A DNA stretch of 64,000 nucleotides from Nocardioides marmoribigeumensis (GTDB taxonomy: Bacteria; Actinomycetota; Actinomycetes; Propionibacteriales; Nocardioidaceae): positions 2,852,001-2,916,000 of the forward strand of contig NZ_JAVDYG010000001.1 of assembly GCF_031458325.1 (NCBI RefSeq). Direction: 5' to 3'. The position numbers and the translations under genes were made by a program. Below, piece by piece: positions 9,962 to 9,996 of this stretch. The notes under the pieces were generated by a model that did not search any database, had not been told where the DNA came from, and saw only the letters and a program-made list of their open reading frames with translations. The first letter of the stretch is position 1. Every line of letters starts with the position of its first letter.

Positions 9962-9996
9962 GGGGGGGGGGGGGGGGGGGGGGGGGGGGGGGGGGG
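9962..9996. repeat. Homopolymer run of 35 G
   Basis: Thirty-five consecutive G on the + strand, starting three bases after the integrase remnant's stop codon. A run this long is far beyond chance even in high-GC DNA. It can form G-quadruplexes and would slip during replication. It may also be an assembly or base-calling artefact. Confidence 0.95.

Follow-up and report, generated by a model that had tools for sequence, protein, structure and literature searches.

How 35 consecutive guanines came to be written into an actinobacterial chromosome, and whether they belong to the organism's DNA or to the way in which it was read, is the question raised by this locus. The window, meaning the whole stretch of 64,000 nucleotides that was analysed, corresponds to G000:C1:2852001-2916000 in a single-contig genome of 4,440,796 bases. 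The poly-G run described in the original prediction is present as exactly 35 consecutive G at 9962-9996 (G35), and the features around it are as follows:

9514..9958, + strand: broken 3′ fragment of a tyrosine-recombinase-like integrase gene (tblastn and DNA matches in relatives)
9962..9996, + strand: 35-base G run (the sequence itself; unique in the genome, chance excluded)
9997..10027, no strand: 31-base spacer between G35 and the IS110 end, without match in relatives
10028..10138, + strand: IS110-family end remnant of ~110 bp, transposase-3′-side (80-92% identity to element ends)
10358..10768, + strand: intact DUF5994 gene (Pfam PF19457, 1.3e-23)
10782..12250, + strand: truncated and frameshifted thiG-thiE(-thiD) remnant (ThiG profile, TMP-TENI fragments)

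The run and its immediate neighbours

G35 is the sole homopolymer of at least 8 bases in the window and the sole G/C run of at least 20 in the whole genome. Seven G/C runs of at least 8 occur genome-wide, comprising five of 8 bases, one G10 and G35 itself, and the interval between 10 and 35 is empty. Under an order-3 Markov model of the window, runs of this length are expected at ~9e-16 per genome, which rules out a chance origin, and the longest run in 640 kb of sequence simulated from this model was 10. Long G/C runs are in fact avoided in the window relative to simple composition: G35 apart, it holds none of at least 8, whereas an order-0 model would predict 26 and the order-3 model 1.6. 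An Rfam search matched no known RNA family near the run, an exact search of viral contigs with the run flanks gave no match, and literature searches turned up neither a description of long G tracts in actinobacteria nor the sequencing platform used for SLBN-35.

The original prediction placed the run between a broken integrase and a strong hairpin, and both are there. On the left lies the C-terminal fragment of a tyrosine integrase, which shares 45-77% protein identity with relatives (tblastn) through its last residue and also has DNA-level matches in relatives; a match on a Roseomonas plasmid is annotated as a tyrosine-type recombinase/integrase. Its N-terminal part is gone, with the 5′ truncation at ~9514-9550, and it lacks ~15 internal residues, including the ITAHSLR stretch present in a full-length relative that carries ITAHSLRAGHATTAALAGV. 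The catalytic R, HxxR, Y set is incomplete in the fragment, with the HSLR region and the N-terminal part missing and the C-terminal ERYIRP kept. The fragment had no match in Pfam or NCBIfam, and a protein search of phages with the integrase matched nothing. Judged by its sequence, 9514-9958 is a broken tyrosine-recombinase copy whose break does not lie at G35. The same genome has another copy from this integrase family, ~45 kb upstream (L127:1879-2319; G000:C1 ~2816378-2816818).

The TGA stop of the fragment at 9956-9958 is a natural 3′ end, as homology with relatives reaches it, and G35 begins 3 nt past this stop. The idea that genes end abruptly at the run is therefore contradicted on this side. 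Downstream of nine related integrase stops, including that of the same-genome paralogue, no G/C run exceeds 4 bases, so G35 can be ruled out as a conserved part of the integrase element.

On the right, positions 10028-10138 are 80-92% identical to element ends in six genomes (G017, G012, G026, G016, G007 and G011). The intact IS110-family copies in G017 and G012 span ~1.5 kb, and their product is an IS110 transposase (PF02371 and PF01548 in Pfam; NF033542 at 4.5e-62) whose stop is situated ~290 bp inward from this conserved end. By sequence comparison, the window block is the remnant of such an element and not a complete member, the transposase being absent in the window. The strong hairpin (from ~10066 to 10101) sits inside this remnant, with an RNA fold at z = -5.9 and four pairs that show two-sided changes among ten relatives. 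The remnant, with this conserved, partly covarying fold on the transposase 3′ side, has intact relatives (L120, L121, L126 and L106), and it is possibly the guide-RNA-bearing end of the element; matching stretches are found on the Rhodococcus jostii RHA1 plasmids (L128 and L129). The IS end begins ~31 nt beyond the run, which excludes G35 as part of IS110, and the spacer at 9997-10027 has neither a match in relatives nor an exact match in viral contigs.

Further to the right, the ThiG profile is matched in two frames (positions 103-165 and 161-234) with its first ~100 positions missing, followed by TMP-TENI fragments within 10782-12250; thiD was assigned from reading the translation only. This remnant bears several frameshifts and the genome holds no other full ThiG match, which suggests either that thiazole synthesis has been lost or that there is an assembly problem. 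A near-perfect long palindrome at 12932-12980 (GAGGGGCCGGTGGAGTGACTCCACCGGCCCCTC), between a tetR gene and a substrate-binding protein gene, is probably a bidirectional terminator.

The surroundings of G35 are ordinary decayed mobile-element and pseudogene debris, and the places at which they are broken do not coincide with the run. The integrase is truncated at ~9514-9550, the IS110 sequence stops at ~10138 and the start of thiG is lost, so the proposal that the run, as a real slippage and G-quadruplex hot spot, drove local rearrangement is not supported. Misassembly at G35 can be rejected as an explanation for the truncated genes, given that the breakpoints lie elsewhere. The searched genomes contained no orthologue of the G35 junction with which it could be compared directly.

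Long G/C runs in related assemblies

G/C runs of at least 20 bases are present in 63 of 295 family genomes and in 62 of 396 phylum genomes. In draft assemblies, many of these are interrupted clusters, convergent G...C pairs or runs ending at a contig end or N-gap (abutting examples are L151, L155, L156, L162, L231, L234 and L253). The orientation of such runs was tallied by hand at contig left ends, within a 250-base limit, for the runs listed in the family and phylum surveys. Among these listed runs, G pointed outward in 48 contigs versus 13 (p ~8e-6), or 30 versus 8 when counted by genome (p ~5e-4), an arrangement like that of read 3′ ends and the one that two-colour chemistry would produce if read tails without signal were called as G. 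Of the readings in the original prediction, an assembly fault thus fits better: similar runs are common in the assemblies of relatives, prefer contig ends and N-gaps in the read-outward orientation and, as described below, overwrite comparable sites. The further idea that such a fault explains abrupt gene ends is not supported.

The proximity of runs to gaps raises the alternative that G35 stands in for a gap or misjoin, with flanks that are not adjacent in the organism. Poly-G/C adjoins N-gaps in scaffolds of relatives (L151, L162, L230 and L253), and the two flanks of G35 do come from different mobile-element remnants. Against this, the genome is one contig, both flanks are coherent up to the run and neither is joined to anything else in the searched genomes, so we regard a false junction as very unlikely.

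Clean single G/C runs of 20-55 bases are also found within long contigs. Eleven other genomes with one chromosome-sized contig (G017, G024, G032, G153, G185, G210, G216, G225, G255, G268 and G280) each contain a single long run (23-42 bases) and otherwise no run of at least 11 bases except for a G11 in G280. Including the genome of the window, eight of these 12 one-contig genomes have runs of 23-25 bases, at unrelated sites. Clean single runs in one-contig relatives include L187, L189-L196, L223 and L224, with lengths clustering at 23-25. One reading of this pattern is that chromosomes of the family harbour authentic but rare tracts of pure G/C, ~24-40 bases long, in unrelated places and mostly no more than one to a genome, made by a process that leaves no slippage continuum, and that the window holds one of them; we consider this unlikely.

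When pairing between the flanks across the run was assessed for 23 clean runs, five fell in the lowest 5% of controls (p 0.005), while the whole distribution over the 23 was not significantly different from uniform (p 0.14). The flanks of G35 form no hairpin across the run (rank 0.95), and those of the G225 run likewise form none. Two loci from two species (L189 and L204) are 99.9% identical over 985 bp, up to a C25/G24 run that occupies the same place in both; recent transfer or cross-contamination may account for this shared stretch.

Run sites that can be compared with relatives

Three run sites could be compared with orthologues or a protein profile, namely those of G225 and G268, in assemblies of one contig each, and that of the draft G240. 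The G225 contig is identical to NZ_VFNU01000001.1 over 13,320 bases. Bounded by a conserved GTCGAAC and a ribosome-binding region, it reads A+C24 (25 nt) at exactly the place taken in orthologues by an ordinary, GC-rich palindrome of 26 nt, and from this alignment the whole palindrome looks as if it has been overwritten. In G268, a C25 run occupies the site of a complete intergenic hairpin in orthologues, of which one arm is left and the second appears to have been overwritten; the spacer here is ~30 nt longer than in orthologues, meaning that the run adds length. In G240 (L203:862-1022), a G21 run lies between neighbouring XFP_C positions and introduces a +14 nt frameshift in the C-terminal domain of a conserved phosphoketolase, which is likely a mis-annotated pseudogene. 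Together with the flank pairing, these sites agree better with bases that were overwritten or padded where reading is difficult than with slippage.

These sites bear on the possibility that G35 is a real, neutral homopolymer, grown by replication slippage where a high-GC actinobacterial chromosome is non-coding and decayed. Actinobacteria carry out mismatch repair with NucS/EndoMS and not MutS/MutL, and indel loops may stay uncorrected. The run is clean and uninterrupted in a one-contig genome, it lies where no coding constraint is visible, and clean runs of 20-55 bases also stand inside long contigs of other genomes. However, intermediate lengths are absent from the genome, long G/C runs are otherwise avoided, the runs of other one-contig genomes are mostly 23-25 bases long although their places are unrelated, and the comparator sites show overwriting and no expansion of a conserved short G run. 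On balance, slippage growth seems to us somewhat unlikely, although it retains appreciable weight.

A functional reading, in which G35 is a phase-variation tract whose length switches a gene, is extremely improbable. Poly-G and poly-C contingency tracts are known, for example, in Neisseria, Campylobacter and Bordetella; long G/C tracts are the classical substrate for such switching, and elsewhere in the surveyed genomes tracts do occur just upstream of secreted-protein starts (19 bp in L192 and 5 bp in L170). The L192 tract itself, however, looks like overwritten sequence. G35 lies neither inside an open reading frame nor in a promoter, as it follows a pseudogene stop by 3 nt, the next gene begins only after a further 361 bases that include an IS remnant, and no promoter-like site was found.

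A probable artefact and its closest parallels

We therefore consider it probable that G35 is a base-calling or polishing artefact, absent as written from the organism's DNA. Several observations favour this reading: the genome has no run lengths between 10 and 35, where slippage should yield a continuum; runs of at least 20 are frequent in the family and phylum; draft runs abut contig ends and N-gaps with an outward bias; ordinary sequence is replaced in G225, G268 and G240; the flanks of clean runs are enriched in cross-run hairpins; and none of the nine related integrases is followed by a comparable run. That G35 is artefactual because its class often is remains a step that we infer.

In the mechanism that we propose, short reads from chemistry in which 'no signal' is called as G would break down at a GC-rich or hairpin-forming site that is difficult to sequence. 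Assembly or polishing could then accept the high-quality G tails of these failed reads as genuine, and G would replace or pad the ordinary bases. What really lies just past the integrase stop may accordingly be a hairpin rich in GC, for example a terminator. Both two-colour poly-G artefacts and their mechanism, in which the lack of signal equals G, are documented (PMC12774610).

Some points weigh against an artefact. G35 is inside a finished one-contig assembly and its flanks lack a cross-run hairpin, while the G268 run lengthens its site instead of preserving its length. The flank agreement between L189 and L204 would also be expected from a real shared tract. In addition, one-contig genomes such as G225 were probably assembled from long reads, and dark-base G calls are absent from long reads unless short reads are used in polishing.

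G35 matters chiefly as a warning. Finished high-GC bacterial genomes appear to hold invented G/C stretches that overwrite real sequence and, in drafts, such invented runs can break genes, as in the G240 phosphoketolase, so G/C runs need to be screened before they are read biologically. G35 is of little biological interest unless it is confirmed by raw reads. If it is real, it is to our knowledge among the longest G tracts in a bacterial chromosome, and would offer a way to test how stable homopolymers are in bacteria that lack MutS/MutL.

Three known systems invite comparison. IS110-family insertion sequences, with their RNA-guided DEDD transposase, account for the block at 10028-10138, which is the end of such an element, but the window remnant is only ~110 bp, lacks a transposase and is unrelated to the poly-G itself. 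Contingency tracts like those of Neisseria, Campylobacter and Bordetella share with G35 a homopolymeric G sequence that would be slippage-prone if real, whereas G35 is far longer than usual, stands outside any reading frame or promoter and has no gene to switch. With two-colour poly-G artefacts, G35 shares pure G on one strand, and the run class as a whole further shares recurrence across unrelated assemblies, the outward orientation at contig ends and the overwriting of ordinary sequence at comparable sites; G35 differs in that it is internal to a finished single contig and retains no cross-run hairpin.
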